From an uncultured bacterium (GTDB taxonomy: Bacteria; Edwardsbacteria; AC1; EtOH8), in contig CALMGM010000014.1 of assembly GCA_937863685.1 (NCBI GenBank), positions 1 through 32,012 on the forward strand: a stretch of 32,012 nucleotides of DNA, given 5' to 3'. Positions 6,106 to 24,820 of the stretch are shown here, piece by piece. Each line of letters starts with the position of its first letter. Within the stretch, counting starts at the first letter, position 1. The notes below the pieces were generated by a model that saw only the letters and a list, made by a program, of their open reading frames with translations, had not been told where the DNA came from and ran no database searches. The position numbers and the translations under genes were made by a program.

Positions 6106-6648
6106 ATGGCACGATTAAGAGAGAAATACACCAAGGAGGCCAAGCCGGCCCTGGTCAAGAAATTCGGCTACAGGAGCGTGATGCAAGCCCCCCGCCTGGA
6201 GAAGGTGGTGGTCAACATGGGGCTGGGCGAGGGCACCCAGGATCCCAAGCTGGTGGAGGCCGCCGCCAAGGACCTGGGCACCATCACCGGCCAGAAGCCG
6301 TCCATCCGCAAGGCCAAGAAATCCATCGCCACCTTCAAGCTGCGGGCCGGAGTGCCCATCGGCGCCATGGTGACCCTGCGGGGCAACACCATGTATGAAT
6401 TTTTTGACCGGCTGGTAAACGTGGCCATCCCCCGCATCCGGGATTTCCGGGGTGTGCCCACCAGGTCGTTCGACGGCCGGGGTAACTACACCCTGGGGGT
6501 CAAGGAGCAGATCATCTTTCCCGAGATCAACTACGACAAGATAGTCAAGGTTTTCGGCATGGACATCACCATCGTCACCACCGCCAAGACCGACGAAGAG
6601 GCCAAGGAGCTGTTGAGCCTGATGGGCATGCCTTTCCAGCAGAAGTAG
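6106..6648 (+). CDS. rplE: 50S ribosomal protein L5
   Basis: L5 binds 5S rRNA and contacts the P-site tRNA. The chosen ATG at 6106 gives 180 residues starting [22 protein letters not shown], the standard L5 N-terminus. It is preceded by TAGGAA about 6 nt upstream. The frame stays open to an ATG at 6049, but the 19 extra residues have no L5 character. Conserved parts include [16 protein letters not shown] (residues 29-44), [19 protein letters not shown] and [18 protein letters not shown]. Confidence 0.97.
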
Positions 6649-9757: not shown

Positions 9758-11071
9758 ATGTTTGAAAAGATAAAAAATATATTCAATATCCCGGAGCTCA
9801 GGAGGAGGATCCTTTTCACCATGGCCCTGCTGGTGGTGTACCGGATCGGCGGGCATCTGCCCACCGCCGGCATCGACACCCAGGTCCTAGCCGAGTTCTT
9901 CCGGGCTCAGCGGGGCACCCTGTTCGGGATGTACGACCTGTTCGTGGGCGGAAACCTGAGCCGGGCCACCATCTTCGCCCTGGGGATCATGCCCTACATC
10001 ACCTCCTCCATCATCATGCAGCTGATGGGCGCGGTGATCCCCTTCCTGGAGAAACTGCAGAGGGAGGGCGAGCAGGGGCGCAAGAAGATCAACCAGTACA
10101 CCCGCTATGCCACGGTGGGTCTGGCCCTGGTCCAGTCCTACGGCATCTCGCTGTTCCTGGAGAGCCTGGCTCCCAACGGGGTCCCGGTGGTCCCCAACCC
10201 CGGCTTCGGCTTCAAGCTGATCACCGCCATCACCATGACCGCCGGCACCATCTTCGTGATGTGGCTGGGCGAGCAGATCACCGAACGGGGCATCGGCAAC
10301 GGGATCTCCATGATAATATTCATAGGCTGCCTGGATGCCATCCCCAGCGACCTACTGAACACCTATACCTCATTGAAGGGCGGGGCCATCGGCATCATCC
10401 CCCTGACCCTGATCGGCATCCTGATGATATTGGTCACCGCCTCGGTGGTGCTGATGACCCAGGGGGCCCGGAAGATCCCGGTGCAGTATGCCAAGCGGGT
10501 GGTGGGTCGGAAGGTCTACGGCGGACAGAGCACCTATATTCCGCTGGGCTTCAACACCGCCGGCGTCATCCCCATCATCTTCGCCCAGAGCGTGCTGTCA
10601 TTTCCCATGACCCTGGGGACCTTCATCAAGGGAGAGTGGGCCCAGAACCTGACCGCCATGTTCTCGCCGGGGGCCTTTCTGTACAACCTGATCTACGGGC
10701 TGATGATCATATTCTTCGCCTATTTCTACACCGCCATCGTCATCAACCCGGGCGACATGGCCGACAACATGAAAAAGTACGGCGGGTTCATTCCCGGCAT
10801 CAGGCCGGGCTCCAAGACCGCCGAATATATCGAGCGGATCCTTACCCGGATCACCCTGCCGGGGGCAGTTTTCTACGCCCTGATAGCGGTGCTGCCCACC
10901 ATCCTGATGAGATCGGCCCACATTCCGTTCTACTTCGGCGGCACCACGCTGCTGATCATCGTGGGGGTGGCCCTGGACACCCTTCAGCAGATAGAATCCC
11001 ACCTGCTGATGAGACATTACGAGGGCTTCATAAAGAAGGGCAAGATCTCCGGCCGGTCCGGAAGGATGTAA
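9758..11071 (+). CDS. secY: Protein translocase subunit SecY
   Basis: SecY forms the protein-conducting channel of the inner membrane with SecE and SecG. The product has 437 residues from ATG 9758; a GTG at 9755 would add one. Ten membrane spans are evident. Typical motifs include RIGGHLPTAGID near residue 28, LGIMPYITSSIIMQL (TM2 region), GIGNGISMIIFIG, and GGQSTYIPLGFNTAGVIPIIFAQS in the C-terminal half. The usual basic cytosolic loop with RHYEGFIKKG closes the protein. It stands between rplO and adk as in most bacteria. Confidence 0.97.
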   Translation: MFEKIKNIFNIPELRRRILFTMALLVVYRIGGHLPTAGIDTQVLAEFFRAQRGTLFGMYDLFVGGNLSRATIFALGIMPYITSSIIMQLMGAVIPFLEKLQREGEQGRKKINQYTRYATVGLALVQSYGISLFLESLAPNGVPVVPNPGFGFKLITAITMTAGTIFVMWLGEQITERGIGNGISMIIFIGCLDAIPSDLLNTYTSLKGGAIGIIPLTLIGILMILVTASVVLMTQGARKIPVQYAKRVVGRKVYGGQSTYIPLGFNTAGVIPIIFAQSVLSFPMTLGTFIKGEWAQNLTAMFSPGAFLYNLIYGLMIIFFAYFYTAIVINPGDMADNMKKYGGFIPGIRPGSKTAEYIERILTRITLPGAVFYALIAVLPTILMRSAHIPFYFGGTTLLIIVGVALDTLQQIESHLLMRHYEGFIKKGKISGRSGRM

Positions 11072-15556: not shown

Positions 15557-16129
15557 ATGAGACACCGTAAAGATACCGTCAAATTAAGCCGCACCCGCTC
15601 CCACCGGGCCGCCCTGGTCAGCAACATGGTGACTTCCCTGTTCAAGTACGAGCGGATAAAGACCACCATCACCAAGGCCATGGTGATCCGGCGCGATGCC
15701 GAGCACATGATCAGCCTGGCCCAGAAGGGCACCCTGGCCGCCCGGCGCCAGGTGGCCACCGTGGTCAAGGACCAGGCGGTGCTTAAGAAACTGTTCGACG
15801 TGATCGTCCCCCGGATGAAGGACAAGAGATCCGGCTTTATGACCATCGTCAAGCTGTGGCCCCGCCACGGCGACGCCGCCCTGCTGGCCCAGATGGAGCT
15901 GTTCGGCGCCCCGGACAAGGTGAAGTCCGAGGAGGCCGAGAAGAAGGCCAAGGCCGCCCCCAAGAAGAAGCCCGCCTCCGCCAAGGCTTCCACCTCCGCT
16001 AAAGCTGCGGCGGACAAGACTGCGAACAAGGCCGATAAGAAGGAAGAGAGTGAGAAGAAGGCCCCCAAGGCCAAGAAGGAAAAGCCGGAGAAGAAGGCTG
16101 AGAAAAAGGAAGTCAAGAAGGCGGAGTAA
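15557..16129 (+). CDS. rplQ: 50S ribosomal protein L17 with long Lys/Ala tail
   Basis: L17 sits near the tunnel exit. The first roughly 120 residues are standard: MRHRKDTVKLSRTRSHRAALVSNM, then ITKAMVIRRDAEHMISLAQKG and the late RSGFMTIVKLWPRHGDAALLAQMELFGAP. Usual bacterial L17 is about 115-130 residues, but this one has 190. The additional C-terminal segment (about 125-190) is a low-complexity run of Lys, Ala and Glu of histone-tail character. It is the last gene of the superoperon, and a strong hairpin terminator follows 18 nt after the stop. Confidence 0.96.
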   Translation: MRHRKDTVKLSRTRSHRAALVSNMVTSLFKYERIKTTITKAMVIRRDAEHMISLAQKGTLAARRQVATVVKDQAVLKKLFDVIVPRMKDKRSGFMTIVKLWPRHGDAALLAQMELFGAPDKVKSEEAEKKAKAAPKKKPASAKASTSAKAAADKTANKADKKEESEKKAPKAKKEKPEKKAEKKEVKKAE

Positions 16130-16147
16130 TATCCTTTGAATAATGCG

Positions 16148-16196
16148 GGCGCAAGGTGATTTTCACCTTGCGCCTTTTGATTTTTTGCAGTAGAAT
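16148..16196 (+). terminator. rplQ terminator, hairpin copy 1, with promoter-like tail
   Basis: A perfect 12-bp stem, GGCGCAAGGTGA (16148-16159) and TCACCTTGCGCC (16163-16174), with a TTT loop, is followed by TTTTGATTTTTT. This is a textbook intrinsic terminator for the r-protein superoperon. The same 27-nt hairpin recurs at 16821 and 23643. In all three copies TTGCGC in the right arm is followed, exactly 17 nt later, by a -10-like hexamer (here TAGAAT, 16191-16196). The termination role is well supported and the promoter role is speculative. Confidence 0.9.
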
Positions 16197-16206
16197 CGCT
16201 TTTTAG

Positions 16207-16819
16207 GACTCATCCCCCTTGCCCCCTTCTCTTTTCCGAATAGAAGGGGGAATAGGGCAAGAACAATCAAAAAAAGATATATGACCAATAGAGTATTTGC
16301 CTTAAAAGTACGGGAAAAATGCCGGGAGCTCAGAAAAAGACAAACCAAGGCGGAATCGCTTCTTTGGCAGGAATTGAGAAGCCGTAAACTTGGGGGCCTA
16401 AAGTTTACCAGGCAGCATCCGCTGTTCGTATCTGATGGCCGTGGGTTGCGCTATTACATAGCCGATCTTTACTGTTATGAGAAAAGGCTGGTTGTGGAAT
16501 TGGACGGGGCGATCCATGAACGCACGCGCGAAAGAGACCGGGATAGGGACGAACTTATTTGCCAGCTTAATTTGCGCGTCATGCGGATAAATAATGTCGA
16601 AATAGAGAATGATATCAAGAAAGTTCTGGAACGGCTGCAGGATGCATAATGACTCACCCCTAAATCCCCTCTCTCTATCAGAAAGAGGGGACTTTTATTA
16701 CCCCCCTCTCTTGAGCAAAGAGAGGGGGGCCTGTCCGCTCGTGCCAAAGGCAGACCCGCCTATATGAACTTACCTGCGGTGGCGGGCTATATGGGCTATC
16801 TGCTAATGGGGGGTGAGTC
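16207..16819. mobile_element. DUF559-bearing unit bounded by 12-nt inverted repeats
   Basis: The ends are GACTCATCCCCC (16207-16218) and GGGGGGTGAGTC (16808-16819), inverted repeats matching at 11 of 12 positions. Inside are the DUF559 gene and palindromes: a 9-bp stem at 16222-16250, CCCCTC/GAGGGG at 16666-16690, and a 12-bp perfect stem at 16701-16729. The right end lies one base from the second copy of the rplQ-type hairpin. No transposase of a known family is present, and no target-site duplication is obvious. I infer a non-canonical mobile unit; a decayed mosaic of repeats is the alternative. Confidence 0.5.
16281..16649 (+). CDS. DUF559 family (PD-(D/E)XK-like) nuclease
   Basis: The 122-residue protein matches the DUF559 pattern related to very-short-patch-repair-type nucleases. 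QTKAESLLWQELRSRKLGGLKFTRQHPL (residues 21-47) is the helical start. D62 in YYIADLYC, E73 and D75 in VVELDGAIH, and H79 form the expected catalytic and metal-site set. The C-terminal VMRINNVEIENDIKKVLERL is also typical. No clear ribosome site precedes ATG 16281. The gene is enclosed by inverted repeats and palindromes, and its base composition is lower in GC than the r-protein genes. Nuclease activity is inferred; the true role of DUF559 is not established. Confidence 0.85.
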   Translation: MTNRVFALKVREKCRELRKRQTKAESLLWQELRSRKLGGLKFTRQHPLFVSDGRGLRYYIADLYCYEKRLVVELDGAIHERTRERDRDRDELICQLNLRVMRINNVEIENDIKKVLERLQDA

Positions 16820-16820
16820 A

Positions 16821-16869
16821 GGCGCAAGGTGATTTTCACCTTGCGCCTTTTTTGTTTTTGGTGTAGTAT
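16821..16869 (+). terminator. Hairpin copy 2 with promoter-like tail
   Basis: The same stem as at 16148 (16821-16832 with 16836-16847) is followed by TTTTTTGTTTTT. It starts one base after the right end of the DUF559 unit. TTGCGC at 16841-16846 lies 17 nt before TAGTAT (16864-16869). It could terminate transcripts from the DUF559 unit and/or start transcription toward the membrane protein gene at 17008. The sequence of the tail differs from copy 1 although the spacing is kept. Confidence 0.75.
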
Positions 16870-17007
16870 TACCTCTATCGTCGGGTTAGCTTGCGGTAAG
16901 AGTTATATCGAATATATTACTTAGCAGTCGTATATAGGGGGCTGAAAGTTTTAACAGAGCTGTATGTGGCAATGGTTACTATTAAGTAATGAGGAAAGGA
17001 GAATGTG

Positions 17008-17472
17008 ATGAAGAAACTTGCATTTATACTAGCCGTCTATGGTTTTATACAACCAATTATTTTAAACGGGTTTGGCATTCTGCAACGCCTAAAAAATCCA
17101 ATTGATTTACAAATCGCGAAGAATGAACCATTCACTTTCGTTCACAGAAGTTTATTGTTTAGCGTTTTAACAACTATACCATATGTAATTATTTTATTTA
17201 TTGTTTACTTCAATGTTAGAGAAGGGGAAAAGGGTAACATTGGTTATCCTCATAAATTTGCCACAATTTTAACAATGGTCGCAATACTATGTTACACGTC
17301 TATTCTTAGTTTCATGGATTATTTTCGTCAGTTCCATGGTTTTTCTAGTTTCCATTTCCCAATATTATTTGGAGTAATACCGATATCCTCAATAGGGCTA
17401 GTATTCATGATCTATTTTATTGGCATAGCTATCGAAAGGTTGCAGAAACGCCGTGTCGGTGAAGTAAAGTAG
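17008..17472 (+). CDS. Four-span membrane protein, probable orphan immunity protein
   Basis: The 154-residue product has four hydrophobic spans and short polar loops. ATG 17008 is preferred over GTG 17005 because GGAAAGGAG (16992-17000) is correctly spaced. The third loop has SFMDYFRQFHG; the membrane protein at 21701, which follows a phospholipase A2 tip, has FYFDYWRQIYM at the matching place, and the span layout is similar. I therefore suggest it is the immunity protein of a lost RHS tip. The stop at 17470-17472 is followed within a few bases by an RHS core fragment. The gene is AT-rich compared with the r-protein genes. Confidence 0.55.
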   Translation: MKKLAFILAVYGFIQPIILNGFGILQRLKNPIDLQIAKNEPFTFVHRSLLFSVLTTIPYVIILFIVYFNVREGEKGNIGYPHKFATILTMVAILCYTSILSFMDYFRQFHGFSSFHFPILFGVIPISSIGLVFMIYFIGIAIERLQKRRVGEVK

Positions 17473-17563
17473 CGGGCAGGGTTCTGACAGCACGGTCTTT
17501 TATTACAACGGTGACGGCGTACGTCTGGCCAAAAGCACCAATGCCGATGTTGAGAAGCGTTAC

Positions 17564-18379
17564 GTGGTTGACGGCATGAATACGGTGGTGGAGCAGGATG
17601 CCGGCGGGTATTTTAGGTATAAATATGTTTACGCCAATGGAATGTTGCTTTCGCGTATTGACAACAGCAGCACAAAGGCGTATTATCACCGTGACGGCCT
17701 GGGAACGATAATAGGTACCAGTAACAGCACTCCGGCTGTAGCCTCGGCCCAGTTGTTTGACGAGTTCGGCAACTGGTTATACTGGGACAGCAATTGGGAT
17801 TATTACACCTACACCGGGCAGGAATATGACTGGCCGCTGACCGATGCCTACAACCTGCGGGCACGTGAATATTACCCCGAATACGGTCGGTTCATGCAGG
17901 AGGATCCGATAGGCAATAGTGGCGGGAGTTTGAATTGGTATATGTATACCCGTGATAATCCGATAAATTTTATTGATCCATTAGGTTTGAATCAGTGTAC
18001 ACCCGAGGAAATGCAGATAGAATCGGGCATGATAAAAAATATAACAAATGCTTTCTATTGGTCTAGATCTAATAACTCATCTGCATGTGCTACAACAACT
18101 GCGAACTTGGAGAATTATCTTGATGCGAGGTTGCCTCACGTTTCACCAGGTAACCCCAAGAAGTGTTGCACCATGACAGACGTCGGGATATGGTATAGCA
18201 GGAGCCATATGGCTGGACAGCATAATTGGATTAAAGTAGAATGCAGTAGCAAGTGCGGTGATAAAGAGATATATCATCTTGACCCGTGGTTGGCCGCTAT
18301 AGTGCTGACGAACAATTCGATTTTTGGTGATGACCTTTATCATAGTCGCGGCCAGCCCACCGGTTGGTGGTCTTGGTAG
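17564..18379 (+). CDS. RHS core fragment with papain-like C-terminal tip (cassette 1)
   Basis: RHS core sequence is in frame from about 17468 (QGSDSTVFYYNGDGVRLA), but the first plausible start is GTG 17564, so the 5' end of the gene is missing. The 271-residue product has the RHS-associated core with YTGQEYD, YNLRAREYYPEYGRFMQEDPIG and NPINFIDPLGL (residues about 84-142). The tip (143-271) switches to AT-rich, Cys-rich sequence. Residues C175 (SACATTTANL), H220 (QHNWIKVEC) and D240 (YHLDPW) are in the order and spacing of a papain-like catalytic triad. A peptidase or deamidase-like toxin is inferred, not proven. A membrane protein gene follows 12 nt downstream. Confidence 0.7.
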   Translation: MVDGMNTVVEQDAGGYFRYKYVYANGMLLSRIDNSSTKAYYHRDGLGTIIGTSNSTPAVASAQLFDEFGNWLYWDSNWDYYTYTGQEYDWPLTDAYNLRAREYYPEYGRFMQEDPIGNSGGSLNWYMYTRDNPINFIDPLGLNQCTPEEMQIESGMIKNITNAFYWSRSNNSSACATTTANLENYLDARLPHVSPGNPKKCCTMTDVGIWYSRSHMAGQHNWIKVECSSKCGDKEIYHLDPWLAAIVLTNNSIFGDDLYHSRGQPTGWWSW

Positions 18380-18391
18380 GGGGGCAGCGTT

Positions 18392-18850
18392 ATGATTATC
18401 AGAAGTAAAATATTTTATGTACTGGTGCTATTTGCGGTAGCATCGCACGAGTTATTTTGGCATTTGTTGCTTTTCCGTTATGTTGACGTTGATAAGATCA
18501 GTGTTGCTATAACGATAGTGCAGTTTGTATTTACAGCCGCATTCATTTATTTGTATTATCTATTTGAGAATCATCATCGCAACAATGTCGCCAATAAAGC
18601 AGTGGCAAGAGCCTTCACGGTGCTTTTGCTGTTGTATTTAATAGGTGCCGCTATCCCTTTTATTGTAAATGTAATAATGTTATTAAATTTTAAAGTGCCT
18701 GATTATGTTATAGCGGTTATTCAAATACCGTTCCTGGTTCGTATAGTTCCGTATTTGAACCCAGGTTTGTATTTGATTATCCTGACGATCATATTGTTAT
18801 TTATCTCAGATAGAATAAAGGTGACCAGCAAACCTAAATCTTGGGATTGA
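18392..18850 (+). CDS. Multi-span membrane protein, candidate immunity to cassette 1
   Basis: The 152-residue AT-rich product has about four hydrophobic spans (near residues 7-25, 40-58, 72-97 and 106-138), with a short charged C-terminus ending KPKSWD. I do not recognise the family. ATG 18392 follows a GGGGGG-containing stretch that can act as ribosome site, 12 nt after the cassette 1 tip gene. A hairpin terminator comes right after it. This tip-then-small-gene-then-terminator layout is typical of RHS toxin/immunity pairs, so an immunity role is inferred from context only. Confidence 0.55.
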   Translation: MIIRSKIFYVLVLFAVASHELFWHLLLFRYVDVDKISVAITIVQFVFTAAFIYLYYLFENHHRNNVANKAVARAFTVLLLLYLIGAAIPFIVNVIMLLNFKVPDYVIAVIQIPFLVRIVPYLNPGLYLIILTIILLFISDRIKVTSKPKSWD

Positions 18851-18878
18851 CTCGCATCGTAGGTTTTCCAAAACAAAG

Positions 18879-18905
18879 AAGCCCGCCAAACGGCGGGGCT
18901 TTTAC
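18879..18905 (+). terminator. Terminator closing cassette 1
   Basis: AAGCCCGCC-AAAC-GGCGGGGCTT forms a GC-rich hairpin with one bulge, followed by TTTT. RHS core coding sequence of cassette 2 (FYNGLGDRLTNYV frame) starts within the T-tract at about 18900. The cassette joint therefore falls exactly on the terminator. Confidence 0.7.
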
Positions 18906-18941
18906 AACGGCCTAGGGGACCGTCTCACCAATTACGTTTAC

Positions 18942-20096
18942 ATGACCAGACCCGGAACGACCACGCTCACCGGCACGATAAATTACACATACGACGGTCT
19001 TAGAAGGTTGAAAATGGTGAAGAACCCCACCGGGTTTAACAACGGCGATACCCTTACCTATACGTATGATGCCGCCGGCAACCGGACCTTTCGGGACAGC
19101 CGGAAATCCAGCGATATATATTATTATTACAATAATAGCAATAATCAAATGACCAGCGGCGTTTCGGCGGATTATCTCTACGATGATAACGGCAATATGA
19201 CCGGCAAGGAGCAGGGCGAAACGTTTTGGAGTTATTCTTACGACTACGAGAACCGGCTGGCCAAGGTAAAGCAGGGTTCTGACAGCACGGTCTTTTATTA
19301 CAACGGCGACGGGCAAAGGTTAAAGAAGGTTTGCACCGGAGATACCAATACCCAGTATATTCCTGACGGGATGTACTCTGCGGTTGAGCGCACCAATGGC
19401 GGCCGTTTGAGATACAAATACGTTTATGCCAACGGAATGCTTTTAGCCAGGTTAGACAGCCTCGGTAGGAAGTATTACTACCACCACGATGCCCTGGGAA
19501 GTACCGTTGGTATAAGCGATAGCAATTACGCTGTTTACAAGAGTTACCTATATGACGAGTTTGGGGATAGCTTGGGAACATGGGGTTCTACACCTTATAA
19601 TACATACAGGTACACCGGGCAGGAGTATGATGGAAAGCCTGCGTATGCTTACAATCTAAGAGCAAGGGAGTATTACCCCAAGCTCGGAAGATTTATGCAG
19701 AATGACCCGATAGGGGATAAGGGCGGGAGCTTGAACTGGTACTTGTATGTGAAGAATAATCCGGTGAATAGAATTGACCCAACGGGGAAAAAAGTAACAT
19801 ATTGTTTTTCTGGAATTCACGGATATTTGCGTGTAGATGGTTATGCATGGGGTTTTTGGCCGAAACAAGGTTACGAACTTATGGCTGCATCACATCCTGA
19901 TCAATTTGTACCTGGTGAATTTCGAAACGATATAGGTCAATTGTGTTGGCCTAGTTATTCTACAAAAGATGATTGTGCTGATAAATGCGTAAAACAAATT
20001 ACAGAAGCGTTAAAATCTACTCCACCCGATTATAGCACTGTTTATTTTAATTGCCATACGCTTGCGTTACTTATATGGCATGTATGTGTGAAGTAA
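18942..20096 (+). CDS. RHS core fragment with permuted papain-like tip (cassette 2)
   Basis: RHS frame is open from about 18900 (YNGLGDRL, a typical YD-repeat piece); ATG 18942 is the first ATG and lies inside the repeat region, so the gene lacks its true N-terminus. The 384 residues include YD repeats (YTYDAAGNR, YDDNGNMTG, YDYENRLAKV) and the RHS core YTGQEYDGKPAYAYNLRAREYYPKLGRFMQNDPIG near 224-258. The tip from about 284 holds H293 (HGYLRVDG), the DDCADKCV block at 343-350 and N370-C371 (NCHTLA). The cassette 4 tip shares these. The His-before-Cys order recalls permuted NlpC/P60 and LRAT-like enzymes; this is my inference. A beta-propeller gene follows after 22 nt. Confidence 0.7.
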   Translation: MTRPGTTTLTGTINYTYDGLRRLKMVKNPTGFNNGDTLTYTYDAAGNRTFRDSRKSSDIYYYYNNSNNQMTSGVSADYLYDDNGNMTGKEQGETFWSYSYDYENRLAKVKQGSDSTVFYYNGDGQRLKKVCTGDTNTQYIPDGMYSAVERTNGGRLRYKYVYANGMLLARLDSLGRKYYYHHDALGSTVGISDSNYAVYKSYLYDEFGDSLGTWGSTPYNTYRYTGQEYDGKPAYAYNLRAREYYPKLGRFMQNDPIGDKGGSLNWYLYVKNNPVNRIDPTGKKVTYCFSGIHGYLRVDGYAWGFWPKQGYELMAASHPDQFVPGEFRNDIGQLCWPSYSTKDDCADKCVKQITEALKSTPPDYSTVYFNCHTLALLIWHVCVK

Positions 20097-20118
20097 ATAA
20101 TTATTTAGGAGAAAGAAG

Positions 20119-21087
20119 ATGAAAACTAATATTAAAAAGACACTAATCACTTTGATATTTATGATATTAGCGTTATCTTTTTTAAGATATTTATTATTAT
20201 TTCTTGTTTCCTTAAATATAAGTAACACAATAGTAGTTAATGACCAAAATCAATTACTATCATATAATTGTAATAATAAGACAACTAAAGTTATATATAA
20301 GCTTTCTGGTTATGGAACTCAATCTATCTATGGGCAGGATATTTCTAACAAGAGTCTCTATATATCTTATGGAGAGTTAACGGACGATTTTAATTCAGTT
20401 TATTCTTTACTAAAAATAAACATGAATACCCAAATAATAGATACACTTATTAAACAATCCAGATATAACATTAATGAAATAGCAGTATCACCGGATAGCC
20501 AAAATATAGCTTTATTGTTACTTGGTTTGGAGCGGCCTATGAAAAAAAGAATATTGTTTTGGGATATTGAAGGGTATGATTATCCATATATAAAATGTGC
20601 TATATATAATTTAAGAGAGCATAGCTTCCGGATATTGCCTGATTCATGTTTTTCTTGGTCAAAACCTAGTTGGGCAAAAGATGGTAATTCATTATGGTTG
20701 TCAACATTTGATGGTAATATAATTAATATCGATCTGAACGGTAATATTATCAATCAATCGTTTAAAGGATATTCGCCTGCATTATCAAACAATGGTAAAT
20801 ATTTAGCATACATAAAGGGAAGGACGATTTATATATATAACTTAAAGAAAAAAAATACTAAAACAGTCGCATCATATTATTCATTTTTTATACCACATCG
20901 CTATCCTCTTGTATACATTACTTGGTCGCCAAACGATGAATATATTCTTTATCAGGGGCAACATATTTTATCTTATATTACTGGATGGTCCTCATATTAT
21001 GTCGCAACAAAAGCTAATGGCTTAAGTTTGCCACAAATAATCCAAGGTGTAACATCAGAAGGTTTTGGTGCAGTATGGGTACCGTAA
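20119..21087 (+). CDS. Membrane-anchored beta-propeller-like protein
   Basis: The 322-residue product has one N-terminal membrane span (about residues 8-36), followed by an outside domain with repeats like those of TolB/WD40 propellers. VSPDSQNIALLLLG, SWSKPSWAKDGNSLWLSTFDGNI, YSPALSNNGKYLAYIKGRTIYIYNL and WSPNDEYILYQGQ are successive blade-like units. AGGAGA sits properly before ATG 20119, and the gene follows the cassette 2 tip after 22 nt. It is strongly AT-rich. It may be the cognate immunity or binding partner of that tip, on the outer face of the membrane. It could also be an unrelated passenger. Confidence 0.5.
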   Translation: MKTNIKKTLITLIFMILALSFLRYLLLFLVSLNISNTIVVNDQNQLLSYNCNNKTTKVIYKLSGYGTQSIYGQDISNKSLYISYGELTDDFNSVYSLLKINMNTQIIDTLIKQSRYNINEIAVSPDSQNIALLLLGLERPMKKRILFWDIEGYDYPYIKCAIYNLREHSFRILPDSCFSWSKPSWAKDGNSLWLSTFDGNIINIDLNGNIINQSFKGYSPALSNNGKYLAYIKGRTIYIYNLKKKNTKTVASYYSFFIPHRYPLVYITWSPNDEYILYQGQHILSYITGWSSYYVATKANGLSLPQIIQGVTSEGFGAVWVP

Positions 21088-21174
21088 TCGTTAAAAAGCA
21101 ACACAACCCCGGAAGTTACCACCGCCATGTTATTCGACGAATTTGGGAATTGGCTTTACTGGGTATATCTTTAA
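21088..21174 (+). pseudogene. RHS core remnant, left half of cassette 3
   Basis: Right after the propeller gene stop, frame 1 reads SNTTPEVTTAMLFDEFGNWLYW, matching cassette 1 (SNSTPAVASAQLFDEFGNWLYW). It then runs into VYL and a TAA stop at 21172-21174 brought in by the palindromic element. It has no own start and cannot be expressed as such. The RHS right half downstream is in the same frame. Confidence 0.75.
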
Positions 21175-21215
21175 AGGGCCTCTCTCCCATTGGGGGAGAG
21201 GCGGGAGAGGGGTCG
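21112..21215. repeat. 104-bp direct repeat containing a palindrome, copy 1
   Basis: This stretch is nearly identical to 22131-22234. It consists of the RHS piece EVTTAMLFDEFGNWLYW plus a palindromic element whose hairpin is CCTCTC-TCCC-ATT-GGGG-GAGAGG (21179-21201), followed by CGGGAGAGGGGTCG. Left of it the RHS sequence matches the cassette 1 lineage, and right of it the cassette 2 lineage. The element introduces a stop codon in the RHS frame. Confidence 0.85.
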
Positions 21216-21684
21216 GTACACCGGGCAAGAATACGACGGCAAACCGGCGTATGCTTACAACCTAAGGGCGCGCCAGTATTACCCTAAGCTGGGCCGGTTT
21301 GGACAGAATGACCCGATAGGGGACAATGGCGGGAGCTTGAACTGGTACTTGTATGTGAGGAATAATCCAGTGAACTGGACGGATATAACCGGTTTGGCTT
21401 GTGGCTCCTTTTGGAATGACCCTATAATACCTGATGATTTTATATGGGGTTACTCTTTCAGATCTGCTTGTGAATTACATGATAAGTGTTATGGCACTTG
21501 TAAAAGGTCAAAAGATAAATGTGATGCCGAATTTTTATTGGATCTACTTTGGGCGTGTAAAAAGTTTGATTTTTCAAATCCAATAAGATACGATTGCATT
21601 CATACTGCATTTTTATATTATAATGCTGTAGTAATATTTGGTGAAGATGCTTATAAAAAAGCACAATGTAATTGCCACAAGTAA
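21190..21684 (+). CDS. RHS core end with phospholipase A2 tip (cassette 3)
   Basis: The reading frame opens at a TTG inside the palindrome, so the start is doubtful. The RHS core (YTGQEYDGKPAYAYNLRARQYYPKLGRF) covers residues 10-37, and the core ends near 70. The tip has C94-E-L-H97-D98-K-C100-Y101, then C104, and C111-D112-AEF with C123. That is the Cys-rich phospholipase A2 active-site helix with the catalytic His-Asp dyad, closest in look to group XII-like PLA2 (HDxCYxTC...CDxEF). It would cut phospholipid acyl chains. A membrane protein gene follows at 21701. As it stands the cassette lacks the upstream RHS shell and is probably silent. Confidence 0.8.
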   Translation: MGERRERGRYTGQEYDGKPAYAYNLRARQYYPKLGRFGQNDPIGDNGGSLNWYLYVRNNPVNWTDITGLACGSFWNDPIIPDDFIWGYSFRSACELHDKCYGTCKRSKDKCDAEFLLDLLWACKKFDFSNPIRYDCIHTAFLYYNAVVIFGEDAYKKAQCNCHK

Positions 21685-21700
21685 AGAAAGGATTACTAAT

Positions 21701-22129
21701 ATGTTAAAAAAAATATTATTAGTTATATTTTTGGGTATAGGATTTTTTATGCATAATTTAATGAGGATTTGTGTAGGCTTATTGTATAAATCGGATTTAA
21801 TAAACTATTATAAACCAAGCAAATCGTTTTTTTATACAATGGGTTTTACAAATATTATACCTTTCTTGATTGTTGTATGTATAGTGATGATTAAAAATAA
21901 GGAATTAAGCGAACAATCGATGAAAAAACGCAATTTTATTTTTTATAGTATGGGTCTTGGACTTATTACATTAAATACTTTATTTTATTTTGATTATTGG
22001 CGGCAAATTTATATGAATACTGCCACTTCAACAATTTCCTTATCCATACCGATAATTATGATTCTTTCAATAGTAGCCTTGCCATTATTTTATCAAATAG
22101 GCAAAATAATATATACATTAAATAAATAA
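21701..22129 (+). CDS. Four-span membrane protein, candidate immunity to the PLA2 tip
   Basis: The 142-residue, very AT-rich product begins MLKKILLVIFLGIGFF and has about four membrane spans. The frame opens further upstream inside the tip gene, but ATG 21701 has AGAAAGGA at correct distance and gives a normal hydrophobic N-terminus. FYFDYWRQIYM in the third span/loop matches SFMDYFRQFHG of the protein at 17008. It follows the phospholipase A2 tip gene by 16 nt, and cassette 4 begins directly after its stop. Protection of the membrane against the neighbour lipase is inferred. Confidence 0.55.
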   Translation: MLKKILLVIFLGIGFFMHNLMRICVGLLYKSDLINYYKPSKSFFYTMGFTNIIPFLIVVCIVMIKNKELSEQSMKKRNFIFYSMGLGLITLNTLFYFDYWRQIYMNTATSTISLSIPIIMILSIVALPLFYQIGKIIYTLNK

Positions 22130-22130
22130 A

Positions 22131-22193
22131 GAAGTTACCACCGCCATGCTATTTGATGAGTTTGGGAATTGGCTGTACTGGGTATATCTTTAA
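22131..22193 (+). pseudogene. RHS core remnant, left half of cassette 4
   Basis: Starting two bases after the stop of the previous gene, the frame reads EVTTAMLFDEFGNWLYWVYL and stops at TAA 22191-22193. It is the same remnant as in cassette 3, but with the first few codons missing. It has no start codon. The RHS right half continues in the same frame beyond the palindrome. Confidence 0.75.
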
Positions 22194-22234
22194 AGAGCCT
22201 CTCTCCCATTGGGGGAGAGGTGGGAGAGGGGTCG
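22131..22234. repeat. 104-bp direct repeat containing a palindrome, copy 2
   Basis: Partner of 21112-21215, with only a few differences (for example TATTC/ATTTG and GGGCC/GAGCC). The hairpin is at 22198-22220, followed by TGGGAGAGGGGTCG. The downstream 104 bp (22236-22339) are identical by eye to cassette 2 at 19611-19714, which shows recent recombination or duplication. Confidence 0.85.
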
Positions 22235-22724
22235 CTACACCGGGCAGGAGTATGATGGAAAGCCTGCGTATGCTTACAATCTAAGAGCAAGGGAGTATTA
22301 CCCCAAGCTCGGAAGATTTATGCAGAATGACCCGATAGGTGATAATGGCGGTTCCCTTAATTGGTACTTGTATGTGGCAAATAATCCGGTGAACTTTGTT
22401 GATCCGTCGGGGAAGAAAATACAAGAATGTTACGCTTGGCGTGGTGGTGCATTTCATACATATTTAGAGGTAAATGGTGTGGGTTGGGGATTTTATGCAG
22501 TAAGCAGTGCTTCAAGATGGCAAATACTGCAAGGGCATGATGTGCCGGGTGTTGTAATGTATGATGCGAGCCCTTTGTATTGTGTGCCATTAACTGATGA
22601 TGACTGCAAAGATAAATGTGTAAACTCAGCAATATTGCAATCAATGAGGGCACCAGGCGAATACAATTTGTATAAACGGAATTGTTACCACTGGATTGGT
22701 GAAATATTAAGCAAATGTAAATAA
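22209..22724 (+). CDS. RHS core end with permuted papain-like tip (cassette 4)
   Basis: The frame opens inside the palindrome, so the start is uncertain. Residues 10-68 are RHS core (YTGQEYDGKPAYAYNLRAREYYPKLGRFMQNDPIG and NPVNFVDPSG). The tip has H83 (HTYLEVNG), VGWGFY, DDCKDKCV at 131-138 and N158-C159 (NCYHWI). These line up with the cassette 2 tip in order and spacing although most other residues differ, which marks a shared enzyme-like family. His first and Cys in an NC motif late is the arrangement of permuted papain folds (LRAT, NlpC/P60-like). The substrate cannot be told. A small pilin-like gene follows 19 nt later. Confidence 0.7.
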   Translation: MGERWERGRYTGQEYDGKPAYAYNLRAREYYPKLGRFMQNDPIGDNGGSLNWYLYVANNPVNFVDPSGKKIQECYAWRGGAFHTYLEVNGVGWGFYAVSSASRWQILQGHDVPGVVMYDASPLYCVPLTDDDCKDKCVNSAILQSMRAPGEYNLYKRNCYHWIGEILSKCK

Positions 22725-22743
22725 TTAAAAAGTGTGGTAGAAT

Positions 22744-23241
22744 ATGAAGAAAATATTAATAATTGGCATCATACTAATTAGTATCATCATCGCTGTCGTT
22801 CTCGTAGTATATTGGGGTATACGAGCAGAGGGTGATTATGTTCGCCTTGGTCTGCTTCGAGAAAATGTCGCACGTGTAATAGATGCCCTTGCGCTATGGG
22901 CTGGTGACAACGATGGTATGTACCCAGTCAACCCTAATGTTCAAAGCATGAAAGGTGGTAAGCCATTTACCGCCTACTTCGAAAAGCCAATAGTACAACC
23001 ATATACGGAGGGCTATACGAAGCTTGATTCCATGATCACCTTCGTGGGCAGCGAGGTCCCGGCCAAGCTTGAGTACGGTCAGCACAAACCGGGGTCTATT
23101 GAAGTCTACGTGTTTGGCGATGGTAAGGGGTGCGTTGTTGTGGGATACGGGTATAAAAAACAACCTATCATCCGGACAGATAGCGATGAGTTTAAAAAGT
23201 TTTACGATGCTTACCTGAAGATGATAAAACCAAACAGGTAA
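22744..23241 (+). CDS. Secreted or membrane-anchored pseudopilin-like protein
   Basis: The 165-residue product has an N-terminal hydrophobic stretch (about residues 3-25), then ENVARVIDALALWAGDNDGMYP. This resembles the segment of type II secretion pseudopilins where the helix ends and the DNxGxYP motif follows. The rest is a small soluble domain with VEVYVFGDGKGCVVVGYGYK-like strands. The classic prepilin peptidase site (G before F-T-L-x-E) is not seen, so it may only look like a pilin. It directly follows the cassette 4 tip and is closed by a perfect hairpin. It is a candidate immunity partner by position. Confidence 0.45.
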   Translation: MKKILIIGIILISIIIAVVLVVYWGIRAEGDYVRLGLLRENVARVIDALALWAGDNDGMYPVNPNVQSMKGGKPFTAYFEKPIVQPYTEGYTKLDSMITFVGSEVPAKLEYGQHKPGSIEVYVFGDGKGCVVVGYGYKKQPIIRTDSDEFKKFYDAYLKMIKPNR

Positions 23242-23244
23242 AAC

Positions 23245-23272
23245 AGAAGCCCCGCCGAAAGGCGGGGCTTCT
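23245..23272 (+). terminator. Perfect 12-bp hairpin closing cassette 4
   Basis: AGAAGCCCCGCC-GAAA-GGCGGGGCTTCT has a 12-bp perfect stem with a GAAA tetraloop. The following T-run is weak (TTCTGCATTT). It resembles the cassette 1 terminator at 18879. Being symmetrical, it may also stop minus-strand transcription from the HTH gene. Confidence 0.75.
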
Positions 23273-23310: not shown

Positions 23311-23691
23311 TTAAGTGCTGGTAGCCTTTAAACGCTGGGGTGGCCTACGGAGCTTTTCCCGTTCGAGATAGGTATCCAACAACTGTACTATCTGCTTGCG
23401 CTCCTTGGCAGGCAGCTTCTCCAACTGGCTTAAACGGCGGTAAAGCCTGTTGTCTTTGGTCTTGGGCGCCGCTTTCAATTTATCCAGGCCCATCAATTGG
23501 TCTACGGTCACGTCCAGGGCTTTAGAAATCTTGGGCAGCAGGTGGGCCGGTATATGCTTGGTCTGCTTCTCGTAGTAGGCGATCACCCGCTGGGGTATGC
23601 CGGTCTCGGCCTGTAGGTCCCGCTGGGAATACCCTGCTTCCCGGCGCAAGGTGATTTTCACCTTGCGCCTTTTTTGTTTTTCGGGTATCAT
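23311..23691 (-). CDS. XRE-type helix-turn-helix regulator, 5' end replaced
   Basis: On the minus strand the protein has REAGYSQRDLQAETGIPQRVIAYYEKQTKHIPAHLLPKISKALDVTVDQLMGLDK, split here as an HTH core. It is an XRE/Cro domain with a following helical tail (LYRRLSQLEKLPAKERKQIVQLLDTYL). Normal relatives start with a helix like FGxRLKxLR just before EAGYSQ. Here that helix is replaced by IPEKQKRRKVKITLR, which is the reverse reading of the hairpin at 23643-23669. The nearest ATG is at 23691 and a GTG lies within the hairpin. The gene therefore looks truncated at the island edge; it may be inactive or restarted. Confidence 0.65.
   Translation of the reverse strand: MIPEKQKRRKVKITLRREAGYSQRDLQAETGIPQRVIAYYEKQTKHIPAHLLPKISKALDVTVDQLMGLDKLKAAPKTKDNRLYRRLSQLEKLPAKERKQIVQLLDTYLEREKLRRPPQRLKATST
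23643..23691 (+). promoter_or_regulatory. Hairpin copy 3 with promoter-like tail
   Basis: The same 27-nt hairpin as at 16148 and 16821 (arms 23643-23654 and 23658-23669) is followed by TTTTTTGTTTTT. TTGCGC at 23663-23668 lies 17 nt from TATCAT (23686-23691), and the ATG of the GHL10 gene starts 10 nt after that. No ribosome site is visible between them, so a leaderless or nearly leaderless transcript is possible. The other option is that the true promoter lies upstream and this is only a terminator. Confidence 0.5.
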
Positions 23692-23701
23692 TAACCACAA
23701 T

Positions 23702-24820
23702 ATGATGAAAACCAGCCTCCATAGATCGCTGATATCCGGCCTTTTCCTGCTGCTGCTGGCGGCCCCGGCTCTGGCCCAGGTCAAGGGGATGTGGGTGGTG
23801 CGCTATTCCTTGACCTCGCCGAAAAATGTCAAGAAGATCGTGGCCCAGGCCCACCAGGCCGGGGTCAACAACCTGTTCGTGCAGTTCTACGCCCGGGGCG
23901 AGGCCTATTACGATTCCAAGCTGGCGCCCACCGCCGACTGCGTGACCAAAAATTTCGATCCGCTGGCCCTGATGGTCAAGGAATGCAAGGCCAAGGGAAT
24001 AAAGATCCACGCCTGGATCAACGTCTATTTCGTCTGGTCCTCGGACCGCAGGCCCCGGGACGGGCGCCACGCCTATTACAAGGGCGATGGCTGGTTCGCC
24101 GCCGACCCCCAGGGCCGGAGTTTAAAGGATTATTCACAAAAGGAACTGGGTCAGAGAAATCTCGAAGGCGTCTACCTTTCGCCCTCCAGCCCGGAGGTGA
24201 AGACCTATCTGCGGGAGCTGGTGAGGGAGATCCTTTTCAAATACGACGTGGACGGGATCCATCTGGATTACGTCCGGTATGGCAGCATCAACTATTCCTA
24301 CGACGTCTCCAGCCGCACCAGCTTCTACAACCAGTACAAGGTGGATCCTTTCGCCCTGCTGGACGGGAACCGGGCCCTGGAGCCGTATTGGGCGACCTGG
24401 CAGCAGTGGCGAATGTACCAGATAACCGACCTGGTAGCCCAGCTGAAGTTCGACATCGTCAAGTTCAACCCCTGGGTGCAGCTGTCGGCCGCGGTCAAGC
24501 CCGACCCGGACGAGGCCAGGCTGTCGTTCGGACAGGACTGGCCGGCCTGGCTGGAGAACCGCTGGGCCGATTTCGTGGTGCTGATGGATTATTCGGCCAA
24601 CACCGGCACCGTGGTGCGGCTGGCCCAAAAGGCCGTGGCTTACAAGGGCCAGGGACAGGTCTACGTGGGGCTGGGCGCCTGGCGGGACAGCATGGACGGG
24701 CTGATGGAGAAGATTCGGGCCCTGCGCCAGGCCGGGATCAACGATATCGTGCTGTTCTCCTACGACGGGCTGGCCCAGCGCAAGATCAGCTTCGAGACGC
24801 TGAAGCACCGGGGGTTCTGA
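23702..24820 (+). CDS. Secreted GHL10-type glycosyl hydrolase-like protein
   Basis: The 372-residue protein starts with a signal peptide (residues 1-25, LLLLAAPALA). The mature part is a (beta/alpha)8 barrel of the GHL10/DUF187 kind: GMWVVRYSLTSPKNVKKIV, then NLFVQFYARGEAYYDS, IKIHAWINVYFVW and DGIHLDYVRY (about residue 185). VVLMDYS and DIVLFSYDGL come late in the barrel. Members act, or are predicted to act, on cell-surface or exported polysaccharides; no substrate can be inferred here. ATG 23702 (or 23705) is favoured because the upstream frame passes through the hairpin and encodes no signal peptide. A terminator follows. Confidence 0.85.
   Translation: MMKTSLHRSLISGLFLLLLAAPALAQVKGMWVVRYSLTSPKNVKKIVAQAHQAGVNNLFVQFYARGEAYYDSKLAPTADCVTKNFDPLALMVKECKAKGIKIHAWINVYFVWSSDRRPRDGRHAYYKGDGWFAADPQGRSLKDYSQKELGQRNLEGVYLSPSSPEVKTYLRELVREILFKYDVDGIHLDYVRYGSINYSYDVSSRTSFYNQYKVDPFALLDGNRALEPYWATWQQWRMYQITDLVAQLKFDIVKFNPWVQLSAAVKPDPDEARLSFGQDWPAWLENRWADFVVLMDYSANTGTVVRLAQKAVAYKGQGQVYVGLGAWRDSMDGLMEKIRALRQAGINDIVLFSYDGLAQRKISFETLKHRGF

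Follow-up and report, generated by a model that had tools for sequence, protein, structure and literature searches.

In a window of 32,012 nt from an uncultured bacterium of the Edwardsbacteria lineage (contig CALMGM010000014.1, positions 1 to 32,012), four 3′ fragments of rhs genes, each carrying a C-terminal tip and followed by a small gene, stand in a row between the ribosomal protein gene rplQ and a gene for a GHL10 glycosyl hydrolase-like protein. The structure of this array, together with comparison of the same interval in related genomes, suggests that it is probably what remains of an rhs polymorphic-toxin locus after the loss of its main gene. Under this proposal, the displacement of tips would have come earlier, leaving a string of old tips together with their immunity genes, and the full-length rhs gene would have been lost afterwards. 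In each cassette, the unit of the array, the end of an RHS core would be followed by a toxin tip and then by an immunity gene ending where the next core fragment starts. The small genes would be retained for orphan immunity to relatives in which the tips are still present, and the tips themselves would be silent except where recombination joins them to an rhs gene. The analysis covered the source genome (a 14-contig, 2.72 Mb assembly that is 97.9% complete), family genomes labelled G001-G008, nine other family members checked for rplQ, and a wider set of 386 genomes.

An array of Rhs tips without a main gene

Downstream of rplQ, the order is imm0, f1-tip1-imm1, f2-tip2-imm2, f3-tip3-imm3, f4-tip4-imm4, a convergent helix-turn-helix (HTH) gene and the GHL10 gene (Table 1). 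A sequence-only reading of this DNA had described four RHS 3′ fragments, each with a tip and a small gene, that enter the core at different points; all four are present and match TIGR03696 (Rhs_assc_core; E-values 7e-17 to 1e-20), and the entry points indeed differ (Table 1). That reading had placed the beginning of the array at 17008, a position that in fact belongs to imm0, which precedes f1 and is not an RHS sequence. Past the core border the sequences of f1 to f4 diverge into distinct tips, and the claim that each tip is different holds with the qualification that tips 2 and 4 are members of one family (34% identity). The window contains no full-length rhs gene, and the description of the array as displaced toxin/immunity cassettes that stand by themselves next to rplQ is supported.

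The cassettes are packed closely. Fragment f1 starts about 4 nt past the stop codon of imm0, f3 and f4 start a few nucleotides from the stops of imm2 and imm3, respectively, and f2 starts directly at the T-tract of the hairpin that follows imm1. The G+C content is 48-52% in the cores, 33-45% in the tips and 24-45% in the small genes, versus 58% in the ribosomal protein stretch. The reading frames of all four tips and all five small genes are intact, and most of the small genes have Shine-Dalgarno-like sequences. In-frame stops or missing starts had been said to make most fragments unexpressible on their own; TAA codons do interrupt f3 and f4, and neither f1 nor f2 has a start codon where its RHS sequence begins, but the latter two are open, with no stops.

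Table 1. Features of the rplQ-GHL10 region (window positions; E, E-value)
Feature	Position	Strand	Basis or remark
rplQ, left boundary of the hotspot	15557..16129	+	orthologs in 9/9 other family members
rplQ terminator hairpin, copy 1, GGCGCAAGGTGATTTTCACCTTGCGCC	16147..16175	+	terminator scan
DUF559 endonuclease-like gene, own hairpin-bracketed module	16281..16649	+	PF04480, E 1.4e-27
Hairpin copy 2 (16820-16848) with promoter-like downstream part TTGCGC-17-TAGTAT, ahead of imm0	16820..16871	+	terminator scan
imm0, orphan immunity-type gene, 154 aa, four predicted transmembrane segments	17008..17472	+	ortholog in G001
f1, RHS core fragment, closest to G006-type core; entry at QGSDSTVF	17476..17983	+	TIGR03696
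tip1, conserved Cys/His positions	17984..18379	+	homologue is the attached tip in G002
imm1, candidate immunity gene, 152 aa, ~5 transmembrane segments	18392..18850	+	transmembrane prediction
T-tract hairpin, GCCCGCCAAACGGCGGGGCTTT, immediately 5′ of the f2 core	18879..18902	+	sequence inspection
f2, longest RHS core fragment; entry at YNGLGDRL, at the recurrent TACAACGG breakpoint	18903..19784	+	TIGR03696
tip2, putative toxin domain, H...NC cysteine-enzyme-like, tip4 family	19785..20096	+	alignment; homologue in G004 C38
imm2, 322 aa, N-terminal transmembrane anchor and PD40 propeller	20119..21087	+	PF07676, E 8e-7; G004 C38 homologue, E 8e-43
f3, chimeric RHS core fragment; entry at SNTTPEV (~21093); palindromic insert ~21163-21215, TAA 21172-21174	21093..21390	+	TIGR03696
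tip3, phospholipase A2-like domain, HDKCYGTC	21391..21684	+	PF09056, E 4e-6, under curated cut-off
imm3, candidate immunity gene, 142 aa, ~3 transmembrane segments	21701..22129	+	transmembrane prediction
f4, chimeric RHS core fragment; entry at EVTTAM; f3-like insert 22182-22235, TAA 22191-22193	22131..22409	+	TIGR03696
tip4, putative toxin domain, H...NC cysteine-enzyme-like (permuted papain/NlpC-like)	22410..22724	+	PF05903, E 4e-4, under cut-off
imm4, 165 aa, N-terminal transmembrane anchor	22744..23241	+	homologue in G004 C64
Hairpin 3′ of imm4, GCCCCGCCGAAAGGCGGGGCTTCTG	23249..23270	+	terminator scan
Xre/Cro-type HTH gene, convergent with the array	23311..23784	-	PF01381, E 4e-10
Hairpin copy 3 (23643-23669), upstream of the GHL10 gene	23643..23693	+	terminator scan
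GHL10 glycosyl hydrolase-like gene, right boundary of the hotspot	23597..24820	+	PF02638, E 2e-27

The absence of the main gene from the genome is supported by strong, although not final, evidence. A 172-aa core query retrieved from the assembly the four array fragments, one further fragment on contig C12 and, on contig C5, a pair of long rhs genes whose cores have diverged to 36-37% identity with that of the array. Moreover, a search of the same genome with the 1503-aa Rhs protein of the sister species G002, which has the same core type as the array, found nothing upstream of residue 1078 except for a 32% match to C5. If an rhs gene were hidden in an assembly gap, its unique 5′ 3.2 kb would be expected on some contig, and none was found.

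These results bear directly on the suggestion, made from the sequence alone, that the array may be a store for recombination with an rhs gene at another place in the genome, a suggestion against which that reading had itself set a genome holding no rhs gene with this core. The search turned up no full-length gene of matching core, nor any N-terminal remnant, and, according to the rule given by Jackson et al. (2009; PMC2935791), the C5 cores have diverged too far to recombine efficiently through homology. What stands of the idea is that homologues of tip1 and tip4 are attached tips in relatives, that silent cassettes do recombine (see below) and that reloading of a tip has been shown in Salmonella (PMC3967940); the partner gene, however, was not found, and we consider a live store unlikely.

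The rplQ-GHL10 interval is an rhs hotspot

The interval between rplQ and the GHL10 gene is a hotspot for rhs loci in this family. The GHL10 gene is the same neighbour in G001, G002, G003, G005, G006 and G008, and the content of the interval varies: in G008 and G005, rplQ is directly followed by the GHL10 gene, with no rhs; G003 has only the DUF559 module; G001 has an imm0 ortholog alone, along with a short repeat element; G006, a member of another genus, has a full-length rhs gene of a different core with a small gene; and G002 has the full-length rhs gene mentioned above, which begins with a signal-like segment, followed by a small gene that belongs to it, two displaced tips accompanied by small genes, and the HTH gene. 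Because G002 carries a main gene at the same locus, the orphan state of the array can be explained by simple loss of that gene. A single chromosomal site presents a natural series that extends from no rhs, through an immunity gene alone and an orphan array, to a full rhs gene with displaced tips, and this series bears on the gain and decay of polymorphic toxin loci in a candidate phylum.

The same comparison bears on the possibility that repetitive rhs pieces were mis-joined during assembly. The array does lie on a 32 kb contig of a metagenome-assembled genome and contains repeated core sequence, but the order of the flanks is conserved in six relatives, imm0 and the region upstream match G001 across the left junction, and the cores and tips are distinct among the fragments, which makes an artefact very improbable.

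The terminator hairpin of rplQ has three copies in the genome, every one at this locus, and was therefore ruled out as a dispersed repeat; across four species of the genus, that of the window included, the copies number 3, 3, 3 and 2, all confined to the locus. These hairpins bracket the inserted modules, namely the DUF559 gene, imm0, the rhs array and a repeat element of ~340-530 bp (window, L084, L085, L086). A predicted promoter-like pattern, TTGCGC-17-TAtnAT, lies downstream of the hairpin. An Xre-type HTH gene is antisense at the 3′ end of the rhs array in five of the six occurrences in the family, including the window, at loci and with core types that vary (23311-23784 on the minus strand of the window; L137, 10096-10590; L138, ~6441-6596; L090, 10814-11101; L084, ~9825-10169); it may encode a regulator of rhs arrays. 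The sole Rfam match in the window is a tRNA.

Tips and immunity-type genes

Homologues of all four tips were detected in relatives. The closest relationship is that of tip4, which shares 75% identity with the tip attached to a 1475-aa Rhs protein of G004, with a 75% identical homologue of imm4 as the next gene (C64). The attached tip of the full-length rhs gene at the rplQ locus of G002 is a homologue of tip1 (37% identity, E-value 3e-20), a homologue of tip2 accompanies a propeller-containing immunity-type gene in the C38 cassette of G004, and a tip3 homologue is present in the C5 cassette of the latter genome. A profile of tip2 and tip4 has matches in the 386 genomes only in three members of the taxonomic family of the window, and none among PDB sequences; H16 and the N91-C92 pair are invariant in the six aligned members. 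The predicted structure of tip4 (mean predicted local distance difference test score, pLDDT, 87) shows a weak likeness to H-box/NC proteins (best Foldseek hit, template modelling score 0.57, E-value 0.05). In tip3, an HDxCYG-type motif is accompanied by a PF09056 score of 27.7 bits, against a cut-off of 29.4, and by similarity to PDB 1faz (E-value 0.0012). The predicted model of tip1 (pLDDT 56) is too weak for use.

Every tip contains 6-9 cysteines, and all five small proteins have at least one predicted transmembrane segment. Given that the tips are Cys-rich, that one of them is phospholipase-like and that the five small proteins are predicted to reside in or be anchored to the membrane, the tips would act at the envelope, with the small membrane proteins as their immunity proteins. 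These same features speak against the alternative that the orphans operate as intracellular modules of the toxin-antitoxin kind expressed from internal starts, in the manner reported for an orphan Rhs and its immunity protein in Salmonella (PMC7043789). Fragment f2 does have an internal ATG, at 18942, but no Shine-Dalgarno sequence was seen at this start, the cores of f3 and f4 are interrupted, and Cys-rich phospholipase- or papain-like tips with membrane-type immunity proteins point to the envelope, so that we judge this alternative to have only a slim chance of being correct.

With respect to selection, the G001 ortholog of imm0, which stands alone at the same locus, is 88% identical to the gene in the window, and the stretch from the hairpin to imm0 is 96% identical. 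The rates of nonsynonymous and synonymous substitution (dN and dS) for imm0 are 0.066 and 0.198, which yields a dN/dS ratio of 0.33 (bootstrap 0.17-0.68), compared with 0.20 for rplQ and 0.04 for the GHL10 gene in the same pair of genomes. By these estimates, imm0 looks to be maintained in G001 without a toxin partner. A search for such a partner in the 386 genomes turned up only the G001 ortholog and a distant orphan in G007; a match within a long membrane protein was judged spurious.

The apparent purifying selection on a solitary imm0 in G001, along with the intactness of the five small genes and the Shine-Dalgarno-like sequences ahead of most of them, raises the possibility that the immunity genes are the sole target of selection, the tips and cores being passengers, and that the array is an acquired defence against the Rhs toxins of relatives. 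Orphan immunity is reported to be protective in other systems (PMC10539506, PMC10470768). However, the intact frames of all four tips are unexpected for long-term passengers, and an ortholog pair suitable for the selection test exists for imm0 only. We regard this alternative as a serious one, with somewhat less than an even chance; it overlaps our preferred explanation, which leaves the weight of the tips open.

Several observations weigh against the reading of the array as a remnant of a locus that lost its main gene. The assembly has gaps, in which an rhs gene could conceivably lie, and a direct ancestor with the main gene attached is not known. The tips of G002 differ from those of the array and G002 lacks imm0, and accordingly the array may have been put together in this lineage at a site that never held a main gene belonging to it. 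Furthermore, imm0 has no known toxin partner, its distant homologue in G007 (30% identity) being likewise alone. In favour of the remnant reading, dN/dS in the comparison with G004 is 0.19 for imm4 and 0.13 for tip4, although the latter ratio is rough given the high dS of 1.17.

Exchange among silent cores and a recurrent breakpoint

The cores of the array do not form one clade: f1 is nearer to the core of G006, f2 is of the other type, and f3 and f4 are chimeric. In f3, f4 and the C12 fragment, the 5′ part of the core is G006-like and the 3′ part f2-like, with a TAA-bearing palindromic insert at the joint. In both f3 and f4, 24 nt of core have given way to this insert of ~54 nt, at one and the same position. 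Past the core, the three fragments differ, and the tip of the C12 fragment is truncated. Identical core tracts extend for 104 nt between f2 and f4, 86 nt between C12 and f2 and 83 nt between C12 and f4, versus 20 nt at most between f3 and f4. Because a core with this stop would be of no use to an active rhs gene, it must have spread between silent copies, by duplication or recombination, and the identical tracts point to recent exchange, also between two chromosomal loci. This is sequence evidence for recombination among silent cassettes, a process that the displacement model allows and that the presence of a main gene makes hard to see.

The C12 fragment marks a second, smaller orphan site (C12:96.2-97.2 kb; L008, 8233-9192), with one membrane-protein gene and an adjoining gene for an ABC-transporter ATPase; the syntenic site on C2 of G002 likewise contains a fragment only. 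The palindromic part of the insert matches about nine other places in the genome, and C-rich palindromes broadly similar in type flank the DUF559 gene (16194-16820). That DUF559 is connected with the palindromic repeats is only a guess, and a literature search for DUF559-linked palindromes found no paper on the subject among those listed.

Four of the 15 junctions that could be placed start at the same core base, TACAACGG at codon ~1080, in three genera and with unrelated sequence upstream (window, 18903; L090, 7651; L092, reverse, 1642; L093, 8715), and two of the four come from one genome. In a simulation with uniformly placed starts, a cluster of four out of 15 within 3 nt has a probability of 0.0003, a value that comes from a post hoc test on positions that are not uniform a priori. 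The shared start might reflect a site preference, but as judged from these junctions it is a lead and no more. Long rhs genes with a related core (46-49% identity), several of them with displaced tips, are also found in WOR-3, Stahlbacteria and TA06 (L100-L104). Two similar junctions in WOR-3/Stahlbacteria (L101, L103) have upstream sequence in common and were counted as one event; none of the displaced tips in this group lies at the TACAACGG breakpoint. Given that the TACAACGG start recurs, that several junctions abut hairpins of immunity genes and that silent cores exchange without an active rhs gene, the tip cassettes of this phylum could conceivably move as units with preferred breakpoints, perhaps through a dedicated recombination mechanism, but we hold this to be doubtful.

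Relation to known systems

We found no report on rhs loci of this phylum in the open-licence papers searched. The array belongs to the known kind of displaced Rhs tips, with the main gene probably lost. Displaced tips, termed dissociated tips, have been described along with proposed circular intermediates and cassette exchange (Jackson et al., 2009; PMC2935791), and the likeness extends to a string of core fragments of variable length, each with its own tip and downstream gene, and to the A+T-richness of the tips. In contrast to those loci, the array is not headed by a full-length rhs gene, its silent cassettes have a stop-bearing chimeric core in common, and two core types, rather than one core clade per locus, occur within it.

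The orphan cdiA-CT/cdiI and rhs toxin/immunity modules (Poole et al., 2011; PMC3150448) similarly combine a toxin fragment devoid of the delivery part with an immunity gene and have a PxxxxDPxGL-like border between core and tip, but they lie downstream of a main gene, which the array is missing. In the rhs-main/rhs-orphan locus of Salmonella LT2 (PMC3967940), an orphan tip with its own immunity gene and ~500 bp of common core resembles the cassettes of the array, except that a main gene is available there for reloading, whereas none of the core type of the array is present here. Finally, as in the orphan immunity arrays of type VI secretion systems, such as those of Vibrio cholerae (PMC5361080), immunity genes outlast the displacement of effectors; unlike those arrays, the array described here retains intact toxin ends as well.

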